A stretch of 64,000 nucleotides of DNA, taken from Daucus carota subsp. sativus (Eukaryota; Streptophyta; Magnoliopsida; Apiales; Apiaceae). The DNA lies in the NCBI RefSeq assembly GCF_001625215.2, contig NC_030386.2:39001296-39065295 (forward strand), written 5' to 3'. Shown in pieces: positions 23,760-59,240 of the stretch (position 1 is its first letter; every line of letters starts with the position of its first letter). The notes below the pieces were generated by a model, which did not search any database, was not told where the DNA came from, and saw only the letters and a program-made list of their open reading frames with translations. A program made the position numbers and the translations under genes.

Positions 23760-24055
23760 TGAAAACATTTGAAACTATTCTGTTCAAACCAGTTCTCCAT
23801 TTTCATTCATCTTAAAAACTGATTACAATATGAGAATTCATTCTCTACATAAAGGAAGTCTACAGAATGCATCCAAACCATTGGACAGGACCACTATCCT
23901 ACTGACATAAACATGCAGACAAAAACTATAACTAATACTGCTAGACCAGACAATTAACCATAACGGACTCTGGCCCTTTCTGGACTCATGCATGCTACTG
24001 AATTTCTTCTGGACAGATGGTCCTTTGACTTCCATAAAGACCTTTGGCTTCATTA
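23760..24055 (-). repeat. Copia-2 3' LTR (296 bp)
   Basis: On the plus strand it runs TGAAAACATTTG...GGCTTCATTA. Both LTR copies share the final TTA, so in sense orientation the LTR starts TAATGAAG rather than TG. The 71-aa frame inside it is repeated in the other LTR and is not a gene. Confidence 0.92.
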
Positions 24056-27000
24056 CTCCCCCTCAAGCTGAGAGTTTGGAACATTAACTCCCAGCTTGTT
24101 CAATAAAATCTGGTGTTGTCCTACAGTTAGGATTTTGGTAAACACATCTGCCAGCTGTTCTGTAGTTGGAACATAAGTGGGATTAATATTGCCTTCAACA
24201 GCTTGTTCCCTGATAAAGTGGCAATCAATTTCCACATGCTTGGTTTTTTCATGATGAACTGGATTTGCTGCAATAGCCAATGCAGATTTGTTATCACAGA
24301 AAATAGTTGTTGAACCAAGATGAGTAAGTCCCAAATCTTTAAGCAGTTGTTTCACCCAAAGAACCTCACAAACAGTCATTGCTAGAGACCTGTATTCTGC
24401 TTCAGCTGTGGACCTTGCCACTACAGATTGTTTCTTTGATTTCCATGCAATAGGAGATTTACCAAGCACAATGCAATAACCTGTAGTAGATCTCCTTGTA
24501 TTTGGGCATCCAGCCCAATCACTGTCACAATAGGCTTGTAATTCTGCAGCTGAGCTAGAAGCTAGTAAGATGCCTTGATCTTTGGATCCTGATAGATATC
24601 TGAGAACTCTTTTAGCAGCTTGGAAATGAGCAGAAGTAGGACTGTGCATGAATTGGCTTAATACATGAACAGTAAAAGCAATATCTGGCCTTGTAATAGT
24701 CAGGTAAATTAATTTTCCAACCAATTTCTGATATTCCTCAGGATGAGAAAGTGGCTCACCTGCAGTTGAAATCAGCTTCACATGAGTATCCATAGGTAAT
24801 TTCAGAGGCTTGCACTGTGTCATCTTGTACTCATCCAGAATATCACAGATATATTTCTTTTGTGATAGAAATATTCCTTGATCATTCCTATCCACCTCTA
24901 TTCCAAGAAAATACCTTAACTCACCTAGATCCTTCATCTTAAACTGTGAGTTTAGGAATTGTTTTGTTTCATCAATAGCAGGCATGCAGTTTCCAGTAAT
25001 CAAAAGGTCATCAACATAAGCCAATACTGCTGTGAAGTTGCTGCCTTCTTGTTTAGTGAACAATGTGGAATCAGCTTTGGACTGCTTGAATCCATCTGAC
25101 TTCAGAGCCAAGCTTAACTTTTCAAACCACAATCTTGGTGACTGCCTAAGGCCATATAAGGTTTTGAGGAGCCTGAGTACCTTATTCTGAAACCTTGACA
25201 AATCTTGATGCTCCCCCTGAAATTCAGTGTTAAATCTGAAACCAACTCCTTTATAGCCTGGTGGGAATTTCATGTACACCACATCTTCCAATTTTCCATG
25301 TAAAAAAGCATTTTTTACATCCATCTGGTGAGTATACCACCCCTTAATAGCTGCAACAGCTAATAAGGACCTCACTGTGGTTAATTTGGCTACAGGGGCA
25401 AATGTTTGATCAAAGTCAACACCATACTTCTGCCTATTTCCCAAAATTACCAGTCTGGACTTATACCTTGTACTCTCTCTCTGGGGATCATATTTGGTAG
25501 TATACAGCCATTTACAGCCTATGGCTGTCTTTCCTGCTGGCAAATCAGTGACCTCCCATGTATTGTTACTTTCTAAAGCATCAAGTTCTTCATTCATAGC
25601 TTGGAGCCAGTGACTGTGCCTAGCTGCTTCCTTAAAATGTTTAGGGTCTGGAATCTTTCCCACTGTATTCATAAAGCATGAGAACTGAGAACTAACTTGA
25701 GCCTCAGTCACCTTTGTCACACAATTAGCACTAACATGATAATCATTATGCCATGTTGGTGCCCTGTGCTCTCTGCTAGATCTTCTTACATTGGAATCCA
25801 CAGCAGTTGTATTTTCCTCTTGAGTCCCTGACTCACTTTGGTCTATTGTTGTTGTGTTCTCTGGACCCAAATCAACCCATGTATCTTGAGTAACACCTGT
25901 TTCTTCCCTATTTTTATCTGCAGAATCTTGAACAATGTGATAGGGAAATATTGCTTCATAGAACTTGACATCTCTGGATACAAAAGTAACTCCAGTAAGC
26001 AAGTTATGCAATCTATATCCTTTCTGTGATGGGGAGTACCCTATAAATACACATGGTACTCCTCTTGGTTGGAATTTGTCCTTGGTTCTACTTGGATTGT
26101 ATGCAAATGCTAAGCAACCAAATACTTTCAGGTGCCAATATTCTGGTTGCTTTTTGTGAAGGAGCTCATATGGAGTTTTTCCTTTAAGCACAACACTAGG
26201 TAGTCTATTGGTGATATGTGTTGCTGCAAGTACACAATCACCCCAGAATTGTAGTGGCAGACCTGCTTGGAACCTTAAGGCTCTTCCCATTTCAAGTATG
26301 TTCCTATGCTTCCTTTCTGCTCTTCCATTCTGTTGGGGCCTATCAACACAAGATGTTTGGTGAATGATTCCCAATCTTTCAAAAAAGGCTCTACAATAGT
26401 GATCATCAAACTCTAGTGCATTGTCTGACCTTATGATTTGGACATATTTCCCAAACTGCCTTTTGGCCATCCTTACAAAGCTTTTAATTGCACTTAGGGC
26501 ATCAGACTTCAATTTTAATAAATGAATCCATGTCACCCTTGAGAAATCATCTACAAATGTGAGGAAGTACCTGTATTTTCCTCTATAATTCACCTTATAA
26601 GGTCCCCATGTATCAATGTGCACCAGACTAAACAGATCTGCAGCTCTTGATTCACTCTTCTCAAATGGCTGTTTAGTCAGTTTTGCAAGAGGGCAGGCAA
26701 GGCACACATCTTGACTCTCCTTTTCAACACCAATCTTCTTAATCAAGTTGAGCCTTTTTAAAGGTGTGTGTCCTAGTCTCTGGTGCCAGAGAGTATTCTT
26801 GCTGATTTTAGGCACATCTTTGATGACAGTTGGCAGATTCTCACAGATATTTGCTGACATAGCAACCTTTGCAGTCTTATTGTTGCCATAATTCTTTGAT
26901 GCACTTAGAACTTGTTGTTTTACCTCAGTTAAAATTCTCTCAACAGGTTCATTTATCAAATAATACAGACCATTTTCTCCTTTTCCAACACCCCTTACTT

Positions 27001-28441
27001 CATTTGACACATTACTCTGTATAATGCAATAGTTATTATGAAAAACAACATTGCAATCTTCATCATGACAGAGTTTGTTTACTGATAACAGATTATGTTT
27101 GAATGCAGGAATGTACAGAACATTTTTAAGGTTCATGTTGTTTTTCAAGTGCACTTCACCACTGTGTGTGATCTGTGATGTTTCTCCAGTAGGCAAATTA
27201 ATCTTTGTATCATTTAGACAAGCAGTTGTATTTTTCAGACTACCATTCATGCCAGTCATATGATCTGAAGCCCCAGAGTCTATAATCCATTCATTACTCT
27301 TAATGGAATCAGCAAAGTGACATGAAACCATACCTGCATAGTTGCAATCTATCTCATCATCAGTATCTCCTCCTTTAGAGGTTGTAGGAAGCATCCTTAG
27401 TAGTTGCTCTAGTTGTTGTGGAGTTATTGTTCCTGTGCTGCTTGCAACAGACCTTGCATCACCATGTAATTGACCCTGAGCATTTGCAGCAACTCTTGCA
27501 CCACCATTTGTCCTTCCCTTGTTCCACCTAGGCTGGTTGTTGCTGCCATTTCCTCTTCCTTTTCCTTTGAATAAGGGCTGAGTCTGAGGTTTTGCTTTAG
27601 CATGCCAGCTTGGATATCCTACTACTGTCCAGCATTTATCAGAGGTATGTCCTCCTTTTCCACATGCTCCACACTGCACTATTGGGGAAGTCTGTTGCAC
27701 ATTTGCTGAAAGACCAGTAGTTCCTTTACTAAACATTGCCAAACCTTCAGTTTCTTCTTTAACTTGGCCCAGCACTTCTCTTTGTGCCTCTTCCTGTTCC
27801 AAGTAACTACAAGCTATTTCAACAGATGGGAGTGTAGTCATCATTAGAATCTGACTTCTCTGAGCTCCATATATTTCATCAAGGCCATTCAAGAACTGAA
27901 ATAATTTTTGCTCTTCTCTTTGTTGATGAAGGGCTGATATTAGATTTGTTATATCAGCAGTCACAGAACTGATTTCTGGAAGAGCTGTGAGTGATTCCAA
28001 CTCTTCCCATAAAGCCCTCATCTGAGTGTAATACTCACTGACATGCTTTCCTTGTTGCTTGGTTTCATACAGCTCTTTATTGAGCTTGTATTTTCTGGAT
28101 CCATTGGTGAGAGCAAATCTCTGTTCCAGATGTTTCCAGATTTGGTGTGCACTGTTGACAAACATTATGGATTTTTTGATAGATTCAGACACAGAACCTA
28201 AAATCCATGAGATGATCATATTGTTACAAGTATCCCATGCCTCTCCCTTGACAGCATCTGCTACATCTTTGGTGAGAGTTCCATTAACAAACCCTAACTT
28301 TCTTTTAGAAGATAGAGCTATCTCCATAGATCTTTTCCAAGATCTATAGTTACTTGATCCTTGGAGCTTATCTATAGCCATGAAATTGTTTCCATCAGAA
28401 GGATGGAGATACAAAGGGCTTGAGACATCTATTGTTGTCAT
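24053..28441 (-). CDS. Copia-2 gag-pol polyprotein (1,462 aa)
   Basis: One uninterrupted ORF from ATG at 28441. Domains: gag with LQGSSNYRSWKRSMEIAL near the N-terminus; CCHC knuckle CGACGKGGHTSDKC (~255); protease WIIDSGASDHM (~384); LWHQRLGH (~547); integrase HIDTWGPY (~610), RSDNALEF (~672) and AERKH (~710). Then come RT QMDVKNAFLHG (~1040) and YVDDLLITGN (~1144), and RNase H DSDWAGC (~1309) and CDNKSA (~1382). Every catalytic signature is intact, so the element could be autonomous. The stop codon TAA is formed by the first three bases of the 3' LTR, and the polypurine tract itself encodes the last residues (LEGE). Confidence 0.95.
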   Translation of the reverse strand: MTTIDVSSPLYLHPSDGNNFMAIDKLQGSSNYRSWKRSMEIALSSKRKLGFVNGTLTKDVADAVKGEAWDTCNNMIISWILGSVSESIKKSIMFVNSAHQIWKHLEQRFALTNGSRKYKLNKELYETKQQGKHVSEYYTQMRALWEELESLTALPEISSVTADITNLISALHQQREEQKLFQFLNGLDEIYGAQRSQILMMTTLPSVEIACSYLEQEEAQREVLGQVKEETEGLAMFSKGTTGLSANVQQTSPIVQCGACGKGGHTSDKCWTVVGYPSWHAKAKPQTQPLFKGKGRGNGSNNQPRWNKGRTNGGARVAANAQGQLHGDARSVASSTGTITPQQLEQLLRMLPTTSKGGDTDDEIDCNYAGMVSCHFADSIKSNEWIIDSGASDHMTGMNGSLKNTTACLNDTKINLPTGETSQITHSGEVHLKNNMNLKNVLYIPAFKHNLLSVNKLCHDEDCNVVFHNNYCIIQSNVSNEVRGVGKGENGLYYLINEPVERILTEVKQQVLSASKNYGNNKTAKVAMSANICENLPTVIKDVPKISKNTLWHQRLGHTPLKRLNLIKKIGVEKESQDVCLACPLAKLTKQPFEKSESRAADLFSLVHIDTWGPYKVNYRGKYRYFLTFVDDFSRVTWIHLLKLKSDALSAIKSFVRMAKRQFGKYVQIIRSDNALEFDDHYCRAFFERLGIIHQTSCVDRPQQNGRAERKHRNILEMGRALRFQAGLPLQFWGDCVLAATHITNRLPSVVLKGKTPYELLHKKQPEYWHLKVFGCLAFAYNPSRTKDKFQPRGVPCVFIGYSPSQKGYRLHNLLTGVTFVSRDVKFYEAIFPYHIVQDSADKNREETGVTQDTWVDLGPENTTTIDQSESGTQEENTTAVDSNVRRSSREHRAPTWHNDYHVSANCVTKVTEAQVSSQFSCFMNTVGKIPDPKHFKEAARHSHWLQAMNEELDALESNNTWEVTDLPAGKTAIGCKWLYTTKYDPQRESTRYKSRLVILGNRQKYGVDFDQTFAPVAKLTTVRSLLAVAAIKGWYTHQMDVKNAFLHGKLEDVVYMKFPPGYKGVGFRFNTEFQGEHQDLSRFQNKVLRLLKTLYGLRQSPRLWFEKLSLALKSDGFKQSKADSTLFTKQEGSNFTAVLAYVDDLLITGNCMPAIDETKQFLNSQFKMKDLGELRYFLGIEVDRNDQGIFLSQKKYICDILDEYKMTQCKPLKLPMDTHVKLISTAGEPLSHPEEYQKLVGKLIYLTITRPDIAFTVHVLSQFMHSPTSAHFQAAKRVLRYLSGSKDQGILLASSSAAELQAYCDSDWAGCPNTRRSTTGYCIVLGKSPIAWKSKKQSVVARSTAEAEYRSLAMTVCEVLWVKQLLKDLGLTHLGSTTIFCDNKSALAIAANPVHHEKTKHVEIDCHFIREQAVEGNINPTYVPTTEQLADVFTKILTVGQHQILLNKLGVNVPNSQLEGE
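24056..24066 (-). promoter_or_regulatory. Copia-2 polypurine tract
   Basis: On the minus strand CTTGAGGGGGAG directly precedes the 3' LTR, as in other copia elements. It is also coding sequence for the pol C-terminus. Confidence 0.8.
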
Positions 28442-28526
28442 CTTTTCCCTCTGTAATACTGAGCTAAGCTGATAATGATACTAACAAGCTATTCTAGTAA
28501 GTGTTTGTGTGTTTATGGAGAACCTC

Positions 28527-31930: not shown

Positions 31931-32263
31931 ATGGCGGAGAAGAGAACAGCGGCGAAAGAGCCGATGAGTCTGAATCAGCGTCACAATCGTCTCCTTTCTG
32001 ACCTCTCTTCTGCTCCGCATCCCAAGCCTCCTTTTCATTTCTCAAGTAACATATCTTTTGATTTCGTGTGTGTGTTTAATTTGATTGTTGTGTGATTGTG
32101 ATTGTTTGAATTGATGTGTGATGTTTACTAGGAGATAGAGAGGATGAAGCGAAGGTTAATTTGACTAAGGCTTTTTCGTCGAGTCTTAATTTAAATGATG
32201 ATGATGATGCTCCTACTTTCGCTGGGATTTCTGATTTTGATCCTCCTCCTCTTTCCAGTCCAG

Positions 32264-32298
<35 letters not shown>

Positions 32299-33040
32299 CT
32301 CCCCCTCCCTCCCTCCCTCTCCCTCCCTCCCTCTCTCTCTCTCTCTGCCTCCCTCCCTCCCTCTCTCTCTCTATCTCTCCCCGCTCTCTCTCTCTCTCTC
32401 TCGCCTCTCTATCTCTCTTGCCTCCCTCCCTCCTCTCTCTCACTAGATCCTCCCCCTTTCTCTCTTCCCCCCCCTCTCTCCCAGCAGCTATACGTGTGTG
32501 GATTAATTATTTATGTATATGTATATGATATATCGTCTGTTCTAGTGAAGGACATGATACTATGAAGTATGAAGTACGCTGCATCATTAGTCTGTGTATA
32601 TAATATAATTATAGCTGATTGTATCGAAGTATTACCAGAGAATGGTTTTTAATTTATAGATATAACTTGTAATCGTATTAAATATTAAAATTGGAAACAA
32701 TGTATGTGAATATATTGTATAATGTATTTGTTCCAGGTGCGGTATTAAGGATTTAACTACCATTTCTGGTTTATAGGTTTTAATGAAAGATGCTATACTG
32801 AAAAGATTATATCACCTCTTTACTGTTATGATCTGTTACAAATTTTAGCTGATTTCATTTATATATCTTGTTTGGTATATTTGTTGTGTAATAATGTTTG
32901 ATTAAAAACAGGCGGAAAAGAGGAAGCAAAGATGAATGTCACCAGGGAATTCTTGCCAAGTGTTACTGTGAATGATGATGCTCCTACTTTCTCCCGTATT
33001 GGTGATTTTGGTTCTCCTTCTCCCCCTCCTCCTAAATCAC

Positions 33041-33124
<84 letters not shown>

Positions 33125-36100
33125 GCGCGCAAGAGTGTATAATGTTTCTGGTTAGGTTCAATAAAAGTTATATATTTATCATTTTGGGTTTTTTGTATTT
33201 TTAAGTGAAAGTACTATACTATAAAATGATTATCATCCGAGTGCGATGAAAATACTATACTATAAAATGATTATCATCCGAGTGCGATGCTTTAGTACGG
33301 TTTTAGCTAATTTTATCCATGTATATTTAGAGAAATGATTTTCGATTGACACCTATAACTAAAATTTTTAAATGAGGAAACATAATGTGTGTCTCTATTT
33401 GTATAATTTATTTTTTCAGTCATAAATTTTAGAATACAGTACCCTTTTTGGGTGTATAGTTATTTTAATACAAGATACATGATACTGTGAAGTGTGAATT
33501 GGATATCATGTTTTTACTTCTAGGAATTTTTACAGTTTTAGCTGATTTCATTTATATGTATATATCTTGAAGACAAAATTTCCCTTAAATTTTTATTCGA
33601 ATTTTTTTTTCCCACGTACTTATATTTGAATATTGATTACAATTTGTAATGAGGAAGAGTTTATCTCAATAATCTTTTTGGAATTATTGTTTTACTATCA
33701 AATTATGAATTACAACTACCACTTCAGTAGTTGCAGGAAATCCACCAGCTGTTGAGCATCACGTGGAGTGCTGGAGTGATGCACACAACTCTTTTGGTAG
33801 ATCATAGTGTTTTCCCATACGATAATGCCGCTTTAGTTTTACGTGTGTTTCAGTGTTTTGCTTTTCTCCTCACTCTCTTGTTAATGTTTTCATTAATGAC
33901 TTTTTTATAGAAGAAGAAGATTCACAATTGAGTCTCAGCAGAGCTTTGTCATCAAAGGATACCCAAAAAGATGACGCCCCTCATTTCTCCGGGATTGTTG
34001 GTTTCGACTCTCCTTCACCTCCTTGTGGTAAATCTTCTCCCTCCCTCCCTCCCTCCCTCCCTCTCTCTCTCTATCTGTCTATCTGTCTGTCTGTCTCTCT
34101 CTCTGTCTCTCCGTTTGTCCGTCCGTCCGTATGTATGTATGTATGTATTTTGCCTTCTCCAGTTTTGGGGTTTTTTAGTCTAATTTGAGATGATGGACGT
34201 ACTATGAAGTTTTTGTTATCTCATTACAGATTAGAACGATATTAGCTGTTGTTGTGTACTTGTAATTTTCTCTTTTTGGGTGGTTAAGTGAAACTTTTCA
34301 TTACTATTGGGCCATTGGCTTTTAGAAATTAAGTTCTATTGTTAATGGGAAGTTATATCTTTGCATGATGTAAATATGATTTCGTGCTTTCATATACACA
34401 CTTAACTACTAATGCTAATAGATGCAGGAAATTCATAACCGTTGAACATACATTATTGTTTTCTCATCTACGATAATGCAGTTTATCTGTTTTCCTGATT
34501 ATTCTGTTTTCGTATTTTGCTTTTGCATTTGACGTGTGCATGTTTTTGTTAATGTATGTTTTATTTGATCAATGTCTTATACCTGAAACAGAAGATTCAA
34601 AAATGAATCTCAGCAGAGCTTTGTCATAGAACAATACAGAAAAAAGTAATGCCCTTCTTTTTTCCATAACTGTGATATTGAGTCACTTTCCTCCTTGTAT
34701 GCTGTTTCTCTCATCTTTGTGTACATAAATATCGGCCAATCAAAGTATTAGCATACTCTAGTCATTCTGGGTTCTTGGTCTGTTCGCATAGCAAGGTACC
34801 ATTAACTTGTATCACATCATAACTTGCCAAGATAAAATCTAATGAACTCTTTAAAAATATTTAGGCCTCTTTTGTTTCGTCAACTTTCAAGTTGCATAGG
34901 AAATTGAACTTCCTTGTAACTAAGTTGCATCACAGAGTTCCAAGTTAAATAAGATGTTTGTGTTTGGTTCATCACTATGTAATTAGGAGTTGCATAATTA
35001 ATTTTGGTAAGTAATTAATATTTTTATATTAAAAAGCTATTCAACTTGGAGTGACTATGGTGAACCTAGGTGACTAAGTTCCCATGTTTTGAGGTAACTA
35101 CAAATATCATGGAATTTAAAGTTCCCTTATCATATTTAGATATCATGTAACCAAACACTTGCACCCAATTTATATCCAAGGAACTTCTAGTTACGTAGTT
35201 GGGTTACATCGAAACAAACAAGGCCTCAGTTTCCCATTAATATTTAATATGAAAATTTTTAAATGGGATGGATATATTAATATTTTCACATCACGTGTTT
35301 TCATATGAACTGAACTACTAATGTGTTTTATTGCACAAATTCCATCAACACATGAGCATCAAGGAGGCTACTCACACAGCAGTACTGGTACTGTATTATA
35401 TAGTTGTTTCTTGTCTCAAATGGCTTAGATCCATACATATAACAATTTGATTGCCCTTTTAGAACATTATTACCATCGGAATCTCCTATTATATTTTTTG
35501 ATGTAATATATTAATGCACTCTTTTATTTTTTCCTTTTCGCTGCCATATACCTCCTTTTGAACTATCTTTATTATCTGAATGAAAAATGATTGCAGAACT
35601 AGAATCAGACGTTGGTATTAAAGTCAGCAGTTCCTTAACCGAGGGTGAATACATGCCTTCCCTTAACAAAGTTGAGAAGGCCGAGTTTCATAAGTTTGGT
35701 CATCCACCTGGTAATCTTTTGTACACACAGGCAAATACGAGTCCACACACAGACACACATATGTATTGTATTGTATTTATTTTAATATGTGTACCTTGTA
35801 GAGTGTAAGGTAGGAGCAAGTCAGCATACATATAAAGCAAAGAGACTATAAAGCCGTGAAATCTTTTGAAGCTCATTAATCATAAATTAGCATTAATAAT
35901 ATGCTTCGTAATGATTTTTAACATGTATAATAGAGGGGCGTGTCATGTAATATTTTTGTTAACTGAAATAATACTTATAATTTTGGTTGTATCGGGTTAA
36001 CTAACGGATTATGTAATGTACAGCAGAAGAGAGGAAGCCTTTGAAGGTTAAGCTTGAAGGTAGACGTCGACTCTGCAAAACAGTTTCATCAATTAATGAC

Positions 36101-39100
36101 TGTGAAGAAGATGACAGTAGCACTTTTTTGAACGATGAACCAGACAATTCAGGGGTAGCAGATTTTAAATCTCCGCCCCCACTGAAGAAAGACCTAAATA
36201 GTGGTGATGAAATCATGGATATTCTTCATGATTTAAGTGCTAAATTTGAGGTTCTCTCGATGGAGAAGACTAAGAGACCATTTTCGACGAAAACTGGGCT
36301 AGTGGAGGATTTATCTGCTTCACGTATGAATAAGGGTACTGCATTTGACAAAGAAAATGAATTGCATAAGAATGCTGGTCCTTCGCCAAGACCTGATAGC
36401 TTTGGCAGTTCTAGTGGATATGATTTCAGCAAAGCCAAAGTGTACGATGATGTGTCTGAAATCAGGAGAGATGGTGGCATGTTGGTAAATGATATGAAGA
36501 ATTGTGCAGGAGATAAAAAGAAGAATGGAACTAGGCACATGAATAATCACATCTCTAATGCAGGACAATCTAATAATTTAAAACATGCTCATAGAAGAAA
36601 AGACCGCAATGATGATGACTGTGTAGTTATTAGTAATCATAACTTTTTAAAAAGTTTAAATGCACGGGAAAGCACAGTAAAGTGGGAGCCTGATGATCGT
36701 GACAATATAAATAAATTGGACAAGGCTGGGGAAAATAATTTTGGAAATGAAGATTCTATTGTTTTGAGTGATCCTATCTCTCAGTTCAAATTAAATGGGA
36801 AAATTGCAAAAATGCTGTATCCTCATCAGCGTGATGGATTGAAGTGGCTCTGGTCACTTCATTGTCAAGGTAAAGGAGGCATATTGGGTGATGATATGGG
36901 TCTAGGGAAGACAATGCAGGTAAATATTCTGAATTTACTCCCAAGCTTTTTCTCATAATTCATTGAATATGTAAATGACACTTAAGATCATAAATGACAT
37001 CTTTTTACACTTTATTTCAGATATGTGGTTTTTTAGCTGGGCTGTTTCACTCACGTCTTATAAAAAGGGTTCTAGTTGTTGCTCCCAAAACACTTCTACC
37101 GCATTGGATCAAGGAACTATCGGCTGTTGATCTTTCTCACAAGACAAGAGAGTGAGAATGCTTTGTTTTATTTTTTTATTATTGTAGTGTACTAATAACC
37201 TTGTCGTTAGATGAAAAATATGAAAACAGAAATTCTGAATATTTTTATATTCCAGATATTATGGGACATGTGCAAAAGCCCGGGAATATGAACTTCAATC
37301 CGTTTTTCAGGTGCTCCCTGTACTATATGCTTGTTCCTGTGACTGAATACCACTATAAGAATATATTGGTCTAGTTAGCAGGCCCTTTTAGGTTGATTGA
37401 CATTGTTTCAAAAATAAAACATTGATCTTATAATGGTTCCATTATTTCCTCATGTTCCTAAAAAATCACCTTTATGTCCTTCATTTTCGACTATGTTGGA
37501 AAAGTAAAGGATTTATCTATTTTGTCTACCAAAGTATGATTTTCTTAGCAGACCAGTTTTCCGATTAAGTCTGGCTTCTTTGTGCCACTCTCACTTGGAT
37601 TTCTAATATTATAAATTTAGAAAGAAAAGTGTTGGACTCATATCCAATGTTTTAGGTATGATCCATGTCATAATTTTGACATTTTAACTATCTTCCCTTC
37701 CTCTTAGGACAAAGGTATTCTTTTAACAACTTATGACATTGTCCGGAACAATACCAAATCTTTACGAGGGGACCATCACTTCTTTGACGATGAAGATGAA
37801 GAGACCTGGGATTATATGATACTTGATGAGGTATTTATACATCTTTGGTTTATGGTTCTGTTATCTTATGTAGGCTGCTTCAAATAGACATACCATTTCA
37901 TTTAATAGGCTAGATCGTTCTACATGAATTAATACCTATATGTTGTTTAGTAGATTGATGTGTTATGTGGTTATTAAATATTTGGTAGGTGTACTGATTG
38001 ACTAATGGAATAATGTGTATGTTGATGCTAATTGGTCTTGTCTGATGTGTTTGTTATGTGACACATGCTGTTTACACCTAAAAGAAAATGTTATCAAATT
38101 TTCCTTTGGTCACGATATCTCTGCCTTCCTTCATAAAAATATAAAGGGTTGTGCTGGGGTTTTAATTGTAGTTGAAGTGACAGGTATTAGATTAGCGATG
38201 ATAATCAATTATGACGTATTACTTAGAAAATATATTTTTCTTCGTGGGAATTGTAATTTGTATGTTTTATCCACTAATTAACAAGTATTGATCTGGAACA
38301 GGATTTTATAGCAAATGAAAGTAAAAAATTATTTAAATAAGTCTGCATGCTGCCATGGTAGCAATCACAAACTGGAAAGAAAAGTTCAAAAGCAAACACT
38401 CGGGTATTCTAAAGTGTTTTTGAAACTTTTTAAATAGGAGTTGCTGTCATTTGGTCATTATTTCTTGCTTGCTAATGGCTTATACTTTATGGAGGTCGTT
38501 GTGTTACTTACTGAATAACTTCATGCACTTCTTTTATTATCCTAGAGGTAGGACACCTGTCTTAATTTTTGTATTTAAATATCAGTTTATAAAATTGATT
38601 GTGTTGCATTGATGCCATTATAATTGACAATTGGTGTCTTATTGGACATGAAAAATTATGATTAGTTAATAGAGTATACCTTTGTTGACATAAACAATTG
38701 CAGGGTCATCTCATAAAGAATCCTAGTACGCAGAGAGCCAAAAGTTTGCTTGAGATACCAGCTGCTCACCGTATAATCATAAGTGGCACACCTATACAAA
38801 ATCACCTCAAGGTACTGACTGTATTTTGTGGCAATTAATCAGATATTTTGTAGTGTACTCTGTTTCACAGTTAGACTCCCAGTCAAGTTACAAGTGTAGT
38901 CAACTTCTAAAGTGTCAATACCAAATTTGATACTTATTAAATATATCTACCAAATTTGATATGATTTTCTTTGATCTGTGATCATTGTAAAACCAAGAAT
39001 TAATATCACAAAATATGATACTTTTTAAATATAAATACCAAATTTGATCTGATTTTCTTTGAATTGTATTCTTTGTAAAAACTAAAAATTAATATAACAA

Positions 39101-42100
39101 GATCTATTAAAACTTTCTTACTTTGCTTATTGATGAAGTCATGCCAACACTTGAATCTTTGTATTTTACAAACACGGTAAAGCAGGCATATCCTGGAATA
39201 GAGGGCACACGTTTTGTTACTTTATTAAGCAGTGACTATAATCCTTTCTTCTATAAAATAATTGTAGGAATTGTGGGCCTTGTTCAGCTTTTGTTGCCCT
39301 GACCTTCTTGGTGACAAAAAATGGTATTTCCATATCTCATGAATGTGTTTCAAATTTTGTTTATAAAAAGAAATGATGGTCATTTATTCTGTTTTAGGTT
39401 TAAGGAAAAATACGAAAATGCTATTCTTCGTGGAAACGAGAAAAATGCTTCTGATAGGGATAAGCGTATTGGTTCGGCTGTTGCAAAGGTGATATTAATA
39501 TGATCAAGATTGTATATTATTAATATTTTTATATTTACAGTCCATGAATTGTAAATGAAATTCGTTTTCTTGTGCATGTTTAGTTAAGTCTAAGATTACC
39601 TGATCATTGTCCTAGCTCCTACTGCATGTAATTTTCTGATTAAGGTATTAAAAACAAATGTATTTTTGTTGCTATTATATGTATAAAGTATACAAAGTAC
39701 AAATGCTTGGACTTGGATGTGAATTTTGGCTTGTTACCCTGTCTTAAAGCCATCCACAAGTAATGATAGTAAATTTTATGTTTTGTTATTTTGTCGCATC
39801 TATTCTTTTCTTAAGATTATCCTGAGATTTGTTAATAGTTCACTGTTACATTTATTAATAGTTTGATTTGCTACTTATAGTGAAAACAAGTATCTCAATC
39901 TCCTAATAACCATGGATTTTGTCTTGTCACTTCGACATCTAGTTGACTATTTAAAAGCACCAACGTTTGGTTTATCTTGTTGAAGCTTGTCCGTTGTAGC
40001 ATAAGAGTCAGTCATCATCATACGCTTATCTTGACAGGAATTGAGAGAACGCATTCAACCTTATTTCTTACGTCGCTTGAAGAGTGAGGTGTTTTGTGAT
40101 GATGATGGCACAAACACGGCCAGTCTTTCCCAAAAGCATGAAATTATTGTGTGGTTAAGATTAACTAAATGCCAGGTACTAGCTAAAAAAATCTGAATTC
40201 TTTAGAAACGGTGATGACATATGTCTTATAGCTATCTATATTGCTTCATGCAGAGACAACTTTATGAAGCTTTTCTAAAGACCGAGTTGGTTGTTTCTGC
40301 CTTTGATGGATCTCCATTGGCTGCGCTAACGGTAATATCTATATTGTTTTTGACACACTTCATCTTATTGTGTGATATACTGATATCCATATCTGTAAAT
40401 ACAGTATCTACTATTTAATATTTGCATAATTAGTTATATGTTTGTGTTATGTGCGTATGTACTGAATATAGCTGCTCAATATGGATATTCTTTTGGTTAG
40501 AGCTCATTAAATTTTTTTATATTATGGCACTAAGTACAGAGAGTTGAATGAAAGAGGCACATTTAAACCTAAAAGGAATTCAGAAGTATTAATGAGTAAG
40601 CCATGTATGCTCGCAATGTCTGCTCAAGTTAGAATTCCACCCCACATTAATTGCTTTGCTTGCTTTAAATTTTTAATTATTGACCGTCAATTGCTGTCTA
40701 TTCGGTCCAGTGGCCAGATATTACCATGCCATTAATGTCAATAGAAGAATTGGTATGGCTGTAGTTGGACACATGTAAGAATGTGATATAGCCTCTGGGG
40801 CTGTTTCTATAGCAAGAAGGGAAAAATGCAATGGATAAAGTGATGAACAGATTTGTTTTGTGTGAATTTATTGGAGATGAAGAGCTGTAGTAATAAAATT
40901 ATAAAAAACTTCTGAAGGAGAAGAAACGAAAATTAGAATGAGATTGACATCTCATCTGGTAGTTTTAAACCGAGCAAATACCTGAAAACATATTTCTGTT
41001 TTCCATCCAATGTCCATTGCTACACAACACAGTAAAAGTTCAGCAAGCTTGATGTTATAGAACATGTTAGATTGTCTTTTTATGGATCTGTGAGGATGCC
41101 CTGTGTCACAATAGAAGGTCTGTATTGGTCAAACAACTCACCACACTATAACCTGCGCAACTTGATGAAAAACTTAAAAAGCGAAGTGTACGGGTATATA
41201 TGGCTTTTATGTTACACACAGTTTATATATTTCTAAGAAAACTTAGGCCAGTTCAATAACTAAGTGCAAACAGAGGAATAGGTCAGAAAAGAAAGAGGCA
41301 AAAGGTGCCACAGTCATCGCCAATATCAAGCAGTGCTGTACAATGACGGCTGAATATTTAATTTTTTTTTATTTGTTATATCCTTTGTTGTTAAATTCAG
41401 CATCTTCTATATATCTAAGTCTTTGTTGGTTTTCTTTAAGGTTAATTGTTTTAGTCTTTGAAGTATCAGAATTTTGATTACATGTACGCAGTCTAATTTC
41501 ACTTCATAATATATATCTTAGTGTCTTTCTTTCTCTCAAGTAGATCCTGAAGAAAATATGTGATCATCCATTGCTTTTGACGAAAAGAGCTGCCGAAGAT
41601 GTATTAGAAGGGATGGATTCAATGCTTAACCCTGAAGAGCATGGCGTGGCTGAAAAGTTAGCAATGCACATTGCGGATGTGACTGAAAGGCTGGATTTTG
41701 CAGAGAAACACGACTATGTGTCCTGCAAAATCTCTTTTATATTATCGTTATTGGTTAGACTCCAACATTATCTATAAAAATATATAGATATATGCTCCTT
41801 GAAATGAAGCCACACTACTCACTACTAGTAATACATTGATAACAAATATTCTTACAACTACTAACAACCAAACAATTCACTCGCAATATTATTCGGCATA
41901 GACATGATTACTCATTTTTTGAACATCATCTGAATTTGTTATATCTCTAATGTTGTTTCACAGCCAAGCTTAATCCCCAGGGGTCATAATGTTCTCATCT
42001 TTTCCCAGACTCGAAAGATGCTTGATCTAATTCAGGTTAGTTTAGCTAATTAGTTTCTTGAAGTTTTGTCCATTACAAATTAACATATACACTAAATATT

Positions 42101-43359
42101 GTGTACATGCAATTAACGGTGATATGAGTGTAGATTTTACCTTTTTTTGGCTAAACGCAAGCTCATTGACTCACAAAGTTACTTAGTATTAGAATCTATA
42201 CTCATTAAGTGAAATCCCCTTTTAGTGGAACATCAGAAGTACCAAATACCAAAGTACCAAAATTTGGCTGTTATCATGTAATTTCTTTTATTTGATAATT
42301 ATTTTTTTATTATTCTCCGATAAAAAGACTTCCATATTGACCAGGATTTTGTAATGTAATGATTATCCCACCAACATAATTATATCGCCAACAAAACTAT
42401 GTGTTTTAATTTTTAAAACTCAAAACAATTTAATTTACAAACAACTCTATAAAATTCCTATTGCATTTCAGAATTCTAATAAATAAGGAGTCCATATTGA
42501 TAATATCAGCCAAATCCATATTAATATGAAAATTAATTCAACCTCTGCCTTTCACAAGATTGCGATAAAGACGAAGAAGGTGGGGTAACACGATAAACGC
42601 AAACTCTGTCAAGAATTAAGCTATTGCCACTACCACTATTAGAAAGATTGTCCCTGTTGCAACGTATAGTAAAAGGATCGAAACACAAGACATTGACAAA
42701 AAAAATTGATAACAAATTAGTTCTAAATTAGAGTTATTTAGGTTAAAAGCTCTTCTGTTAGATGTGTATATTAATATATTAATTTGTCAAACAACTACCA
42801 CTACTAGACCTAAAACTTACACATAATATTCACCTGTTCGACTTTTATATTAATTTGTCAAAAAACTATTGAAATAACATTTGATCCTATGAATTTATTT
42901 TAGAACGATACGTTTTATTTTAGACCTACAAAAACTCCGACTAACCTTACACATAACATTTACCTATCAGGCGTCTAAAACAATTGCAAATTTAAAATTT
43001 TTAATTTACTAAAGATTAAAGACCGTACAAGTCAACTAATATTTGTTGGTGCTGAATATTCTTTCCATCTCTTTAAAAATCATAAAAAAGATAATGATTT
43101 TGCTAAAATAAAACATATTGTTCTAAAATAAATTCATAGGATCAAATGTTAATACATGAAAAATATTATATCTAAACAACAATAGTTTAAATGAGTATAT
43201 GAAAAAGATGATAGTGTAATTAAATAATAAGACCTTATAATTCTAATAAATAATAGATTTAAAAAATTCATATAAACCGTGCTTGGCACGGGTAATAAGC
43301 TAGTATGATTTATATGCATGATGCTAATGGCTAACTTGTACACACACACACACATATAG

Positions 43360-43391
<32 letters not shown>

Positions 43392-46300
43392 GTTTGTATA
43401 GTATCACTATTATTTCTTAGCTATGATTTCTGTAGCATAATTATTCACCATTCTAAATCTTTGTTTTTTTTGGGCATTGAATAATCGCACATCAGAAGTT
43501 TAGCTATAACATACTTCTGTTTACTTTTAGCATCACTATGACCACAATAGTTCTATTTCCAAAGAACACAAGCAAGTACTTGTAAACCAACATTGTAAAA
43601 ACTAAAAGCAAATTGCTAAAGGCTTGATTCGATATATATAAACATTCATTACATTTACAACGTAAATAATGGAGGTTAGGGGCAACAGTGCATATATATA
43701 ATGTTTTTATTGCCTGCCAATGTTCTGGGCATTGAATTGTTTAGTATATTCTGCTTTATCTTATTCTTTGTTTCCTGTTAATGTGTTCAGCATTATGGGC
43801 GCCTTGTGTATTTTTTTTTTGGAACATGATTACTGCCTCTGTTCATTAGCATCCATTATTATTGTGCCTTATTTGCAACTCCTGTCTAAAGTGGTTTTTT
43901 TTATCACATTTGATTATAGTAAAGCTCAGTTGCATTAAATATATTTGGCTATTAGGATATTATTTGCATTTTTTTGGCTAAAATATTGTATGTCGCATAT
44001 TTTAGTATTATGTGAGTGATCTTTTAGTTATATTTTTGTCTAATAATTTTACATCGGGTGCTCTGACTATTGTATTGGTAACGGTTGATCCAGATTCGAA
44101 TCCGAGGTGATATTTAGTAGAATTTTTAGTTTTCTGATTAATCTTTATCTTTTTTTTTAGGATTCCCTAATATCTAACGGCTACAAATTTTTGCGGATTG
44201 ATGGGACTACCAAAGCTAATGACAGACTGAAGATTGTTGATGTGAGTGTGCTAAATTATGCTAAATTAATTATCAGGAAATATTAAAAAAAATAGTTTTA
44301 GTGACACAAACTTGCATCGCAACAGGATTTTCAAGCAGGCGGAGCTCCCATTTTTCTACTGACTTCTCAAGTTGGCGGACTAGGACTTACACTAACAAAA
44401 GCAGATCGTGTCATAGTAGTTGATCCAGCTTGGAATCCAAGGTGAATGTTCACAAAATGTATACCGTTACATTATAAAGTCGGATCTAGTTTTCGAGTTG
44501 GTTAACTGTTTTGAGTCTAGTAGCAAGTTTAAAGTTTAATCTATTTTTCAAATATTGCTCCGTTTGCAATTAACTTCAAGTGCAATAATCTGTTTCAATT
44601 AATTAAAACGCATAACTTCTCTGTATACTAATATACATTCCCAGTATTCTTTGCACGGCATAAGTTTATTTGTTAGTGAAAAAAAGTCAAATACAATATT
44701 AGCGGTCTATTTGTATTTATCTTAAAAGTACTTTGATTTTCAGTATGTATAACTTAAGTGCTAATACTAATTTATTTATATTTATAGAATTAATAAAACT
44801 TTGTGCGATAATGAGGGACTAACTTAAGTACATTTTTGTACATTTAAAATTGTGAAATTCTACACATATATGTATATATATTATTTTCACAACTGTATAA
44901 TAATTTCACGACATGGTGTCCTTCGTTTACAAATTGAATAACTTATAAAATACCAAGATAAGCTACTTTAGAAGTGCATTTCATAGTCTGAAATTAGTTT
45001 TGATGTGGTAGCTCTGTATAAAGATAATGGAATTCAAAAAGTAGAACTATGAAAAATTAGTTTTGAATCTTTTGTGCTGGTCACAAAGGAGTATTTATAT
45101 ACATGTGATTGAATTTGATTAAAACTTGGACTTTACCAGAGAAAATGAAAATAACATACTTTTTTTTATGCTCTAAAAGCAGCGACTGTAATGTACCAAA
45201 AATAAATTATGCGATTGTTGGATTAGCTTATGACATGAATTTTTAGCTGATGACTTTCAGATAAGATTTTGCCAAATCATTACCATGCATAAAATTATTC
45301 CTTTCCAGGTCTCCGTATGTACCCAATAATTTATCTACATAATATAACTGTATAATATGATACAAGTAAAACTTTTCTAAATAATTATAAAATATGTGTA
45401 AAAATTAAAAGTTTAGCTCCTCTCTCTGCATGATCTATATAAACATGAAATGCATTTAATATTTTATTTTCCATATCTTTTGCAGCACCGATAACCAAAG
45501 TGTTGATCGTGCATATCGTATTGGACAAAAGAAGGATGTTCTAGTGTATCGATTGATGACTTGTGGAACTGTTGAAGAAAAGATATATAGAAAGCAGGTA
45601 GTTTTTTTTAGATATGACTTTACTTGGTTAAGTTTTATGTTAACTTATATTCTGGTGATGCCATATTATGTCAATAAACTGTATGTTTTTTTTCTGATAT
45701 TAAATTATGGGTTGTGGCGGGGATGTGGGTTTCACCCAAGGACTGCTCATATGACTTTACTTGGGTTAAGTTTTATGTTGACTTGTGTTTTTGTGTTGCC
45801 ATATTATATCAATAAACTGTATGCTTTCCTTTTGATATTCAATTTTGGGTGTGGTGGGAATGTGGGTTCGCCCCCAAGGGCTGTTGCCTGTTCATATGTA
45901 TAGAGTATATTTGGTACTTTTTTCATTTACAAGGTACCAATAATTTATATCTTGTATGCCTCAAGAACCTGCTGTTTGTTGGGGCACACGGTGATTAAAA
46001 AAAAACTGAAAGTCAATTTATTTTTGGCAATACATGCAATAGTGTTCTCATTTATTTGTAACTGCCCTCTTATAACCATGTTTTGCTATTTTATGTGACA
46101 TAGGTTTTTAAGGGGGGCTTGTTTAAAAGTGCAACTGAACACAAAGAACAAATTCGATATTTCAGTCAACAGGTACTTAACTAACGGATCCAAGTCATCT
46201 TGATCTCTATTGTTTACTTGAACAACACACACACACACACTCACATAAGACACACAGTCATGCATTTTTAAATTCATATCTTTGTTTATAACAAAATTGG

Positions 46301-48318
46301 ATCTCTTGACACACACACACACACATACATGTCATACTCACATATGAATATGTAAATTCACATCTTTGTTCTTAAGATATATGAATCAGTCAGACTGTTT
46401 TCTCTTCTTTTTTTCCTCCACTCAGTATATGTGTAAACATTTTTATGCAGGATCTTAGGGAGCTGTTCAGTATCCCTGAACAAGGTTTTGATGTTTCTCT
46501 CACTCAACAGCAGTTGCATGATGAGCACGATGGTCAGCTCAAAATGTAAAATCTTTTTTCATAAAGATGTTTATAGCTCTTTTTTGGTGATTTTTGTACC
46601 AGACCTGTAGTTTTAACTTTTAAACTACAATGCTAGTCACTGGGATTGGTATTTAAGTATTTTCATGAATATGCACTTATCTTTTTATATGTAGTACTGA
46701 TAATAAATCTACAGGGATGAGTCACTGGAAAAGCATTTAAAGTTCGTGGAGTCGCTCGGTATAGCTGGAGTTAGCCACCACAGTTTACTTTTCTCAAAGA
46801 CAGCACCTGTAGCAGCAGTGCAAGAAGAGGAAATTACAAGGTGAGCCTTATGCATGTATACTTGCTAGAACATTATGATACACAGTAGTAAATGCAGTGG
46901 AGATTGTGTAAACGTGATTTCTGGTACTATATGTAAACAACTGTTTAACATCTATTTGTTCATCACCATTCAAATTAGGGGATGTCTGAAGTGAGAAATT
47001 TTGACATTCAAATTGTTTGAAAGCCTAGAAATTCTTAAAACATTTGTGTTTTGTGAAGAAATCTTACGAGGGACATTGTCTCTCTTATCTGTAAAAACAC
47101 TGATTTTTGATTGTATGTCTATGAAAGAATGAATATCTAGGTGAGGGAAACTTTAGATGAATCAGGGAAGGAGGAAAAGTTACTACTATTGTCTCCATCC
47201 TAATCGTTGTGTGGTGTGCAGGGTAAATCCTAATAGATTTGTGAGCAGCTCAGCCTCTTTCTCTTCAAATGAACGTGATATAGATGGGTAAAGCATATAG
47301 TGATTGTCAGTTTACTCCCTTCCACAATCATATTGCATTATTAGTTGGTATTAATTTGGAGACTTTTGTTTAAACAGTGCTAAGTATGCATTTAACCCAA
47401 AGGATGTTAAATTGCACACCAAAGTTTCTTCATCAAACAATTCATGTTCACCAAGTGAAAGGGATATTCAGGATAGGATCAAGAGGCTATCTCAAGTTTT
47501 CGCAAATAAGGTACTTCTTCTCTAAAAAATATCTGTTGGTGTTAAAAAACAAAACTGATTTACAATTGCTCGCTCGTTTTCCAAATTTTCCGAAGCAAGG
47601 GACTTCTTGTATGTGATGCATCATGCGAAAACAAAGACACCTTCCCCTTTAAGTCTGTTCAGAAGTTCATTCTGAATATTGTAACTTGAAATAATTCATG
47701 CCCAATCTTACCGACCTGTTAGTTCTTGAACTCTATGAAGGATTGTTCTGCAAATTCATGAAAACAAAACAAAACTGTGAACACCAAACAACAGTAAAAG
47801 CTGGGCTAGTTGATATCTATGATTGCTTTCCCTCTGTGTCATTCCTTTTTATTTTACTTTGCCTGGGATATAAACTTTGGCAAGTTATATTCTATATATT
47901 TATTGCATTATTAGTCTGGTTTGTAGCTTTAGCTAAATCATTGTCATTGGGATATGTATGCCGTAGAAGTGGTATCCCCTCCTTACAAAAAGCATGTAAA
48001 ACTATTTTGATAAAGAGAACTTAATAGATTGATACTATTATACAACTCCTTACTATTTAATGCAATTGCGAAAATTTAGAACCAATAGCACACATCCTAT
48101 AATTATCTGCTGCTTTGTTTGGTTTATACCCTTTCGCAGATATTGGCGTGTCCCTGAGATACCTTTATTCTTTTTTCCAGGTTATGATTTCCAACCTACC
48201 TGACAAGGGAGACAAGATAAGAAAGCAAATCGCTCAATTGCATTCGGAACTTGAAAATATTAGCTCGGAGGCTAGAAATAAAAATAATATAATCGATTTG
48301 GATGAAATATCAGGATAA
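31931..48318 (+). CDS. CHR24: CHR24-like (ERCC6L/PICH-like) SWI2/SNF2 ATPase
   Basis: 25 exons splice in frame to 1,166 aa. Exons: 31931-32045, 32132-32263, 32912-33040, 33911-34027, 35597-35710, 36024-36919, 37021-37151, 37256-37310, 37708-37830, 38704-38811, 39268-39323, 39398-39488, 40038-40175, 40254-40331, 41544-41753, 41964-42035, 44161-44241, 44326-44441, 45486-45597, 46104-46172, 46451-46545, 46715-46840, 47222-47287, 47378-47510, 48181-48318. Helicase motifs are complete: [10 protein letters not shown] (492-501), [15 protein letters not shown] split across exons 9/10 (~604), [60 protein letters not shown]. The C-terminal [20 protein letters not shown] and [18 protein letters not shown] are specific to CHR24/ERCC6L. 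These DNA translocases remodel chromatin or DNA in repair and mitosis. Exons 2-6 repeat an acidic DDAPTF module. Confidence 0.88.
32266..32475. repeat. CT/CCCT-rich imperfect microsatellite at the start of CHR24 intron 2
   Basis: About 210 bp of CT, CCCT and CTGC-type pyrimidine repeats begin two bases after the donor GT. The open frames across it on both strands are low-complexity artefacts. Confidence 0.9.
33044..33122. repeat. Pure CT microsatellite (~39 units) at the start of CHR24 intron 3
   Basis: Nearly perfect (CT)n begins three bases after the donor GT. The length is probably polymorphic. Confidence 0.95.
33207..33288. repeat. Tandem duplication, two 41-bp units, CHR24 intron 3
   Basis: Units 33207-33247 and 33248-33288 share TACTATACTATAAAATGA and CATCCGAGTGCGATG; they are almost identical. 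Confidence 0.85.
34034..34148. repeat. Compound tetranucleotide microsatellite at the start of CHR24 intron 4
   Basis: A series of CCCT, CT, CTGT/CTAT, GTCC and GTAT units follows the donor of exon 4 closely. It looks like a repeat that mutated stepwise from CCCT to GTAT. Confidence 0.9.
34592..34697 (+). pseudogene. Dead duplicate of CHR24 exon 4 inside intron 4
   Basis: After an intact-looking acceptor (CTGAAACAG) the sequence AAGATTCAAAAATGAATCTC, then AGCAGAGCTTTGTCA, parallels exon 4 (33917 onwards). It hits TAG at 34627-34629 in the expected frame and then decays (CATTTCTCCGGGATT of exon 4 becomes CTTTTTTCCATAAC). The GTAAAT donor is lost. Its upstream intron sequence also matches that before exon 4. 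It must be skipped for the gene to work. Confidence 0.8.
34863..35226. mobile_element. MITE with GGCCTCTTTTGTTTCG-type terminal inverted repeats
   Basis: The left end AGGCCTCTTTTGTTTCG and right end CGAAACAAACAAGGCCT are inverted repeats with about 2 mismatches. The interior (~360 bp) consists of diverged internal inverted segments around AAGTTGCAT and TAGTTACGTAG. The target duplication could be TTA/TCA but is unclear. It sits in CHR24 intron 4 between the dead exon and exon 5. Confidence 0.6.
42195..43303 (+). mobile_element. Non-autonomous Helitron (~1.1 kb) in CHR24 intron 16
   Basis: It starts with TCTATACTCATTAAGTG after an A and ends with a short hairpin (CCGTGC TTG GCACGG, 43278-43292) ten bases before the terminal CTAG, followed by T. 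TC...CTRR ends, a 3' hairpin and insertion between A and T define Helitrons. No RepHel coding sequence is present, so it needs a helper. Confidence 0.65.
45613..45898. repeat. Tandem duplication (~137-bp units) in CHR24 intron 19
   Basis: Two diverged copies each run from TATGACTTTACTTGG through ATCAATAAACTGTATG or GTCAATAAACTGTATG to GGGTT(T/C). The second unit starts at 45750. An open frame across them is not a gene. Confidence 0.75.
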
Positions 48319-49686: not shown

Positions 49687-50176
49687 TATTAATTGAGTTA
49701 TAATTTTAAAATATTAGATTTTGAAATGGAAAAAAAAATCCAAATTCTTTTAAGTATTCAGGATGCACTTTTAAATAAGATATTCAATACCTCTCGGACC
49801 CAAACGAATATTAAGCCCGTAGATTAGTTCGACTAGCTAGCAGTGGCCAACACTCCTAAAGCCTAAAGTTTTCACCAAAACTCTAAAAGACTTAAAGCTT
49901 GATTTGATTCATCGGTTTATATTTGCATGTAAAAACATCTCATTTCTACGTGTCACCGACCGGCAAATCATGTCATGACTCATGAATACACCAGTGATTT
50001 CTTTGATTGCATGAGTTTACAATCGCGTTTGACTTAACTTATAAATAACTCGTAACCCGGAAAATATACATATTTTTCGGATTTAAGTAGCTTATAAGCT
50101 CGTCCAAACACTCATCAGTCATCACAGTCTATAGGAGTAAATAGAACTAGCTAGAGAATTTGTACAGCAAAAAATC
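48319..50176. other. Intergenic region between CHR24 and the PUP cluster
   Basis: About 1.86 kb. The first few hundred bases are CHR24 3' UTR. An AT microsatellite (~15 AT units) lies near 49653-49683. The last ~100 bp includes the leader of the first purine permease. No further gene is supported. Confidence 0.4.
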
Positions 50177-53100: not shown

Positions 53101-53617
53101 TATATACATTTTGCAAATATACTTTATAGCGGTTTTAAAATGCGTACCAAAAAGTAACGTAAAGAACCTAAGACGGACGGAGGGAGTAACATGTTAGAGA
53201 AATACCCTCAATGAATCGTATGTTATATTTCAACGGAGTTCATTGTTTAACACGATTAATCTGCAGGCAATACCAAGGGAAGCAAGAAACTTTGATCTAG
53301 GGGAAACAAAATACTATGTGGTACTGGTCTGCAGCGGAATAATATGGCAGTTCTTCTTTATAGGAGCCGGAGGAGTTATTTTCTGCGCTTCGTCTTTGTT
53401 ATCGGGCATCATAATAGCGGTTTTACTTCCCGTTATCGAAGTATTAGCTGTTATTTTTTTCAAAGAAAAATTTCAAGCGGAGAAAGGAGTTGCTCTCGTT
53501 CTTTCTCTCTGGGGATTTGTCTCGTACTTCTACGGCGAATTCAAACACAGCAAAAATGCAGAAAAGAAAGCCGAAGCTGAAATGGAATTGCAAATAAATC
53601 GAACTGCGCTTCCGTAA
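50177..53617 (+). CDS. Purine permease family transporter, tandem copy A
   Basis: Three exons, 50177-50606, 50944-51269 and 53267-53617, splice to 368 aa. The architecture (phase 1, then phase 0; exon 2 exactly 326 bp) is the same in copies B and C. Ten hydrophobic helices are expected, belonging to the drug/metabolite transporter fold. PUP hallmarks: [17 protein letters not shown] near the start, the [20 protein letters not shown] helix, [18 protein letters not shown] at the loop, and the C-terminal [18 protein letters not shown] and VSYFYGE. PUPs are proton-coupled importers of adenine, cytokinins and related heterocycles; relatives import nicotine or benzylisoquinoline alkaloids. The substrate here is unknown. 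Intron 2 is unusually long (about 2 kb) and contains a Stowaway-like MITE. Confidence 0.9.
52951..53186. mobile_element. Stowaway/Mariner-like MITE in PUP-A intron 2
   Basis: 236 bp with terminal inverted repeats CTCCCTCCGTCCCAACA and AAGACGGACGGAGGGAG, flanked by TA on both sides (52949-52950 and 53187-53188). Matching ends and the TA target are diagnostic. The right end lies 80 bp before the exon 3 acceptor. Confidence 0.88.
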
Positions 53618-58364: not shown

Positions 58365-59240
58365 GTACATACTTAACTAGCATGTATAATCTTGTCTTTT
58401 TGTATTCGTGTGATATTTGGAAACATCTCTTCTAACAACATTATGCAGATATGTACTTGACGAAAACAATTTTAAAAAGAGGATGTTACAATTTAGCTAT
58501 GTGTTCTTCTCTACGCGCCTGATTTCTTCTGAAGTAATTTAATTTTATTAGATTCTGCGATGGCACCTTATGTCGTAAAGAGAAGCATTGCAGGGGGAAG
58601 AGGAAGTGTCTCGGCCCTAAGCACTGAGAAACATAGCGGGGGCAGAGGAAGTGTTTTGGCCCTAGACTCGTGCACTATTTTTTTTTCTAATCGGACTGAA
58701 TAAGGAAGGAGTCCGCCTAATCTCATGATCTGAAGTCTTATAACATACACAGTATAGAACAAGATATGAAATTCTAGAAAAATTTTATTGAAAAGCCAAG
58801 GTGAATATGAAACAAAAAGCCTAAAACACAGAGTCTGGACTAACAATATTTCTACGTTTAGTACGCTTGGAACACTAATAATATAGTCTGGACTGCCGGA
58901 CACTCCTAAAAACCGTTATCAACAACAGAAAATCACGATTTGTTTAACTGCACTTGTAGTAAAATATGCACTAGATACAAAATTCCACTCCTAAGAATGT
59001 CAACAACAGTATAAAAATGACTTGATTGCATAACTTAAAAAAGAAAGATAAATATGTTTAACAAAAAACAACTCTTAACTCAATATCAAGTAGTCATCAT
59101 TCTTAGTTAAAAAATAAACTAAAAATGTTTGAATTTTGCTGTTAAACTAGTAGTTAGCACGTCTGATTCTGATCATTAGTCTTTAATTACCAGACTAAAT
59201 TGCAATATTAAGATCATCACAGTAGTTTTGGGATTTCATT
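58365..59240. other. Spacer between PUP-B and PUP-C
   Basis: 876 bp. A short imperfect duplication near 58577-58665 contains two AGAGGAAGTGT(C/T)(T/C) phrases followed by GGCCCTA. An antisense open frame over it has no recognisable domain. The PUP-C promoter should lie at the right end. Confidence 0.4.

Follow-up and report, generated by a model that had tools for sequence, protein, structure and literature searches.

What may have lengthened the N-terminal tail encoded by a SNF2 ATPase gene of Daucus carota subsp. sativus, and what could the added sequence do for the protein? The gene lies on the forward strand of a 64,000 nucleotide (nt) stretch of contig NC_030386.2 (the whole of which is referred to here as the window), where it occupies 31931-48318 and can be read as 25 exons encoding an uninterrupted frame of 1166 amino acids (aa), with splice sites picked by eye and GT-AG boundaries at 24 of 24 introns. 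An initial annotation of this DNA had claimed that exons 2, 3 and 4 encode one repeated pattern, that all three start and end in phase 1, and that they were built by tandem duplication. Judged by the homology of the adjacent exons and of the introns flanking them, exons 2-4 are a tandem exon duplication.

Homology of exons 2 to 4

The gene model agrees with the claimed phases, as exons 1-5 all end in phase 1 and the lengths of exons 2, 3 and 4 are multiples of three (Table 1). Nine residues are invariant across the three exons, in the arrangement DDAPxFxxIxxF..PP. None of these open copies contains a stop or frameshift, and the gaps between them are whole codons.

Protein pairs were scored by local alignment against 2000 shuffles. 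With exons 2, 3, 4 and the beginning of exon 6 taken pairwise, no shuffle reached the observed score in any of the six comparisons (0/2000). At the DNA level, z-scores were calculated for 105 segment pairs with the CT tracts masked, and nine exceeded the threshold of z 3.5. The open exons gave values of 11.4 (exons 2 and 3), 9.3 (exons 3 and 4) and 6.7 (exons 2 and 4), which with the shuffles bears out the single repeated pattern that had been proposed. The homology is not confined to coding sequence: intron 2 against intron 3 scored z 11.1, and the intron before exon 4 against intron 4 scored 8.6. A self-blastn comparison paired exon 2 with exon 3, exon 3 with exon 4, and exon 4 with a broken copy, psi4, and the first two of these matches extend into the CT tracts. 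As homologous introns flank the copies, the duplicated units include intron sequence.

Table 1. Features of the gene and of the repeated exon module (window coordinates)
Feature	Position	Strand	Description
Exon 1	31931..32045	+	Start codon, open frame, ends in phase 1
Exon 2, module copy 1	32132..32263	+	132 nt, 43 aa, phase 1-1
CT-rich tract after exon 2 donor	32267..32441	+	From intron position 4
Exon 3, module copy 2	32912..33040	+	129 nt, 42 aa, phase 1-1
Pure (CT)39.5 tract after exon 3 donor	33044..33122	+	From intron position 4
Candidate exon	33737..33796	+	60 nt, phase 1-1, no stop; dissimilar to the modules; coding status uncertain
Exon 4, module copy 3	33911..34027	+	117 nt, 38 aa, phase 1-1
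Pyrimidine-rich tract after exon 4 donor	34033..34111	+	From intron position 6; first 40 nt uninterrupted
psi4, broken exon 4 copy	34592..34698	+	In-frame TAG at 34627-34629; expected donor gone
Exon 5	35597..35710	+	114 nt, phase 1-1; not shown to be a module copy
Diverged module, 5' part of exon 6	36056..36184	+	43 aa; protein, DNA, profile and background tests; possible founder
Exons 6-25 with introns	36024..48318	+	Remaining tail, SNF2 ATPase, helicase C, C-terminus; stop codon 48316-48318

The broken copy psi4 is closest to exon 4 (z 13.8) and also pairs with exon 3 (z 5.3). In pairwise alignment, small gaps shift its frame inside the motif. Its expected donor lacks a GT, and the GT found two bases upstream scores 0.9. 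Being broken, psi4 shows that duplication yielded at least one failed copy.

Tandem exon duplication is itself a known kind of event, and the new details here are the broken copy and the pyrimidine tracts that lie beside the donors. In the searches made of the open-licence PMC literature, no title on this duplication was found.

Identity of the gene

The encoded protein matches PF00176 (SNF2; 1.3e-61) and PF00271 (helicase C; 2.8e-24). Among the best 60 of 95 PDB matches the top ones are ERCC6 (3.7e-98), a DNA repair protein (1.1e-90) and RAD26 (2.3e-90), with the others starting from 6.5e-73. By its domains and closest solved structures it is an ERCC6/CSB-group SNF2 ATPase. The CHR24-like name is our assumption, and follows what we take to be the Arabidopsis N-terminus.

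The stretch in exon 6 and exon 5

Two further members, diverged from the module, had been suggested: the start of exon 6 and exon 5. Because shuffling breaks runs of acidic residues and prolines, windows of real sequence were added as background. The scores of the exon 6 stretch with exons 2, 3 and 4 were matched by 0/171 windows further along the protein and by 0/3205 windows from other frames. Its DNA scored z 5.4 with exon 2 and 4.1 with exon 3; the pair with psi4 was not above z 3.5. A HMMER profile of exons 2-4 was run on 2779 sequences, comprising the frames of the window of at least 15 aa and the protein after masking of exons 2-4. Apart from the three copies, its highest-ranking matches were psi4 up to the stop (E 0.004) and then exon 6 (E 0.015-0.018), with the next sequence at 1.1.

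Exon 5 behaved differently and was rejected as a module copy. Its scores with exons 2, 3, 4 and 6 were reached by 1225, 292, 887 and 1361 of 2000 shuffles, no DNA pair involving it exceeded z 3.5, and 1067, 168 and 549 of 3205 unrelated windows equalled its scores with exons 2, 3 and 4. Of the two suggested members, the start of exon 6 is thus retained and exon 5 is not, whether by protein, DNA or background. Tandem duplication is supported for exons 2-4, psi4 and the exon 6 stretch, along with the homologous introns, and not for exon 5.

A contig collection scanned with the exon 6 protein returned two loci, one of which (L001) aligns to query residues 241-298 at 35% identity. The other (L002), which aligns over 22 residues at 64%, was rejected as a plant relative and regarded as a chance match, since its sole low-E match has a stop codon and the sequence looks bacterial by eye. 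The same scan of viral contigs gave no match. The acceptor of exon 6 is of the NAGNAG type (36022-36027) and would add or drop one residue.

Pyrimidine tracts and a candidate extra exon

Pyrimidine runs of at least 20 nt starting at intron positions 4-6 follow exons 2, 3 and 4 only, and were found in 0/21 other introns. In the intron after exon 20 there is one other run of at least 20 nt, at position 226. The tract was probably copied along with the module exon, and may serve as a misalignment site that promotes duplication or as a splicing-regulatory element.

Intron 3 also holds the candidate exon of Table 1, which would bring the gene model to 1186 aa. Its acceptor scores 7.3 (95th percentile of the region 6.4) and its donor is weak at 2.2 (median of the region 0.7, 90th percentile 4.4). 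Alignments and a repeat pair indicate apparent remnants of it at about 34428 and at 35331, the latter without an AG. No segment pair with the candidate exon was above z 3.5 in a comparison that covered the remnants only within whole introns. In the same intron, at 33206-33289, there is a 41-bp tandem repeat of two copies that are 98% identical.

Age, constraint and a possible founder

Jukes-Cantor distances (K) between the open exons are 0.43-0.59, the lowest being that of exons 2 and 3. Introns 2 and 3 differ by K 0.55, a rough value as the global alignments include poorly alignable stretches. Plant substitution rates are 7e-9 to 1.5e-8 per site per year, at which K 0.43-0.6 would correspond, as a rough figure, to some 14-43 million years.

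The proportion of non-synonymous differences (pN) is below that of synonymous differences (pS) in the three open-copy pairs (pN/pS of 0.27/0.44, 0.31/0.67 and 0.30/0.52), with pN at least equal to pS in 201, 43 and 234 of 5000 bootstraps. Identity inside the 13-residue core compared with outside it was 9/13 v 12/26, 9/13 v 7/22 and 8/13 v 8/25, and the non-synonymous rate (dN) was lower in the core in each of the three pairs. These figures support moderate constraint on the module exon; that the core is the constrained part is not proven by them.

The N-terminus of Arabidopsis CHR24, as we take it to be, has one PNFSIITDFCSPSP motif. The region of this motif, in that unverified sequence, was compared with the exons in 2000 shuffles each: 0, 1 and 2 shuffles reached the scores with exons 3, 4 and 6, 84 reached that with exon 2 and 1250 that with exon 5. 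By eye the motif was placed between GRRRLCK and EIM.IL, as in exon 6, and a global alignment sets it against exon 4, not exon 6. If the presumed sequence and the placement by eye are right, the exon 6 stretch is an old copy and exons 2-4 are additions. As a lead, the exon 6 stretch may be the founder copy. A lineage expansion of the module is plausible on the basis of the pairwise K values and of the single motif presumed in Arabidopsis.

Proposed explanation

The explanation that we consider probable is that a single phase 1-1 exon was repeatedly duplicated in tandem, along with parts of its introns, and that this extended the N-terminal tail. This exon would encode an acidic-aromatic DDAPxFxxIxxF followed by a proline-rich end, a putative docking motif in a disordered tail, and extra copies of the module would raise avidity for one partner. 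The founder may be the diverged exon 6 member, and the broken psi4 would mean that copy number went up and then down by one. Within this explanation we infer the docking, the avidity, the inclusion of exons 2-4 in the mRNA, the role of exon 6 as founder and the restriction to a lineage.

Several observations weigh against it. Two DNA pairs, exon 4 with exon 6 and psi4 with exon 2, were not above z 3.5. With E 0.015, or 0.018 in the masked protein, exon 6 lies just outside the HMMER inclusion line, and its module does not show the F..I spacing found in the open copies; in the protein alignment with exon 4, its N-terminal part is also out of register. The selection test is small (35-39 codons per pair, with pairs sharing sequences) and is marginal in two of the three pairs, and for exons 2 and 3 the dN/dS of the core (0.68) is greater than that of the N-terminal half (0.29). 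In favour of a probably disordered tail, residues 1-450 score -0.086 on a charge-hydropathy index, on the disordered side, and the ATPase scores +0.137, which is not; the index is a weak measure based on composition only.

Alternative explanations

The same repeats could have arisen with no functional gain, by unequal crossing over at intronic repeats that adds symmetric exons to a tolerant tail. This is possible and is held tentatively. In its favour, psi4 is broken while the frame of the gene is otherwise intact, the long CT tracts in the introns of the module exons could favour misalignment, and the exons have diverged to a similar degree as the introns (K 0.43 for exons 2 and 3, 0.55 for introns 2 and 3); it sits poorly with the excess of pS over pN, the identity of the core and the three open copies that lack a stop or frameshift. 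It is rather unlikely, in our view, that exons 2-4 are alternative cassettes, with tail length set by how many there are and by the CU-rich tracts at their donors, for example via PTB-type CU-binding proteins. CUCUCU binds PTB, the three exons are all symmetric, donor-side pyrimidine runs are confined to them, and under leave-one-out scoring the donors of exons 3 and 4 fall below the gene median; however, the donor of exon 2 is among the strongest in the gene. Were the duplications neutral, the locus would still document clearly how exons are born and lost, with open copies next to a broken one and a tract at every open donor.

If the module docks, several partners can be considered. The N-terminal part of Arabidopsis CHR24 (1-381), unlike the ATPase domain, is reported to give no distinct pulldown of ARP or NAP1 (PMC11132878), so both are poor candidates and another partner would be needed. 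One proposal, which we regard as improbable, is an acidic string that docks TFIIH, in which two pockets of the p62 pleckstrin homology (PH) domain would take up the invariant Phe and the Ile that follows three residues later, and the extra copies would enable the CSB-group protein to recruit TFIIH on its own. The p62 rule is an acid-flanked aromatic, often with a Val three residues on, as in UVSSA F408/V411, Rad4 F95/V98 and TFIIE-alpha F387/V390 (PMC11266705), and RPB6 F13/V16 fits it (PMC8754651). After DD the open modules read F-A-G-I, F-S-R-I and F-S-G-I, and a loose pattern written for the rule has exactly three matches in the 1166-aa protein, these being the three modules. This pattern carries little weight, as it was written after the modules had been seen, allows Ile for Val and counts copies that, through shared descent, amount to a single event; three matches are reached by 51 of 5000 shuffles of the tail, and at least one by 1928 of 5000. 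By the features of a TFIIH-interacting region (TIR), the aromatic is acid-flanked, with DD upstream of the Phe in 3/3 open modules and an acid downstream (SDF in exon 2, GDF in exon 3 and GFD in exon 4), and the residue three on is Ile rather than Val in 3/3. The TIRs of Elf1, p53 and DP1 also lack that Val and bind more weakly (PMC11266705). Plant UVSSA is reported to lack F408 and V411 (PMC6492544), so there may be a gap to fill, which makes the TFIIH idea worth a test. Against it, CSB and Rad26 are reported not to bind TFIIH directly (PMC11266705), Al Khateeb et al. give CHR8, not CHR24, as the Arabidopsis homologue of CSB (PMC6492544), the exon 6 stretch has no F..I, and a search of PDB sequences with the exon 2 module gave no chain at E<=10. 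A review names both CHR8 and CHR24 as homologues of CSB (PMC12707071). Very improbable indeed is the extended form of this proposal, in which exon duplication in this plant lineage would have given the protein a multivalent TFIIH-docking tail that recruits TFIIH where plant UVSSA may be unable to, and the CU donor tracts would let splicing set the number of sites.

Docking of TFIIS, IWS1 or the like through a motif that binds domains of the LEDGF/TFIIS N-terminal-domain (TND) type, with FxGF among acids, is given little credence here. IWS1 carries such TND-interacting motifs (TIMs) in its disordered N-terminal region, and they bind TFIIS, ELOA and LEDGF (PMC13175633); DFxGFDE of JIL-1 is a published example of FxGF (PMC6877644), and Arabidopsis TFIIS (RDO2) contributes to ultraviolet (UV) tolerance (PMC6492544). 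Two of the three modules have F-x-G followed by Ile, but the FxGF itself is absent, as the copies read F-x-G-I, F-x-R-I and F-x-G-I, with Ile for the second Phe in 3/3 and Arg for Gly in exon 3, and the motif definition was taken at second hand. It is also doubtful that the repeated stretches bind histones, so that a longer tail would strengthen contact with the nucleosome or H3/H4. Acidic-aromatic histone-binding motifs exist. Binding of GST-CHR24 to H3/H4 is indicated by the title of a supplementary figure (PMC11132878).

Should the partner of the module prove to be a repair or elongation factor, having several copies of the motif in one gene would allow avidity in a disordered tail to be tested directly, and also the way in which plants recruit TFIIH or elongation factors to remodellers of the CSB group.

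Neighbouring features

Upstream of the gene, frames of 1481 aa (18324-22769, +) and 1475 aa (24053-28480, -) resemble Copia-type polyproteins by eye. Downstream, a cluster of purine-permease-like (PUNUT) gene pieces lies at 50141-60201 (+), with PF16913 matched by 4/4 frames tested, and it is followed at 61519-63399 by a probable cytochrome P450 gene, whose first frame matches PF00067.

Comparison with known systems

One close comparison is with Arabidopsis CHR24. By eye, the sequence that we take to be its N-terminus resembles the carrot protein in the start of exon 1, GRRRLCK, the one PNFSIITDFCSPSP motif and the start of the ATPase, and in this unverified sequence there is by eye no match to exons 2-4 between exon 1 and GRRRLCK. 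Arabidopsis CHR24 is likewise an SNF2 ATPase of the ERCC6 group in which a long N-terminal part precedes the ATPase, and its 1,090 aa, compared with 1166 here, fits a shorter protein in that species (PMC11132878). Human CSB/ERCC6 and yeast Rad26 are alike in the ATPase region, where the best PDB matches lie (ERCC6 at query residues 455-991); they differ in that, among the best 60 of 95 matches, no best stretch starts before query residue 374, leaving the modules uncovered.

The TFIIH regions of UVSSA, Rad4, TFIIE-alpha and RPB6 share with the modules the acids, the aromatic and an aliphatic three residues on, whereas the modules have Ile for Val and are repeated as exons. TND-binding FxGF motifs are alike in the acids followed by F-x-G in 2/3 copies, and here Ile replaces the second Phe. 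Tandem duplication of symmetric exons is a general mechanism. As in that mechanism, an in-phase exon has been copied with its intron and one copy has decayed; here, the unit encodes a short tail motif, and every open copy has a pyrimidine tract next to its donor.

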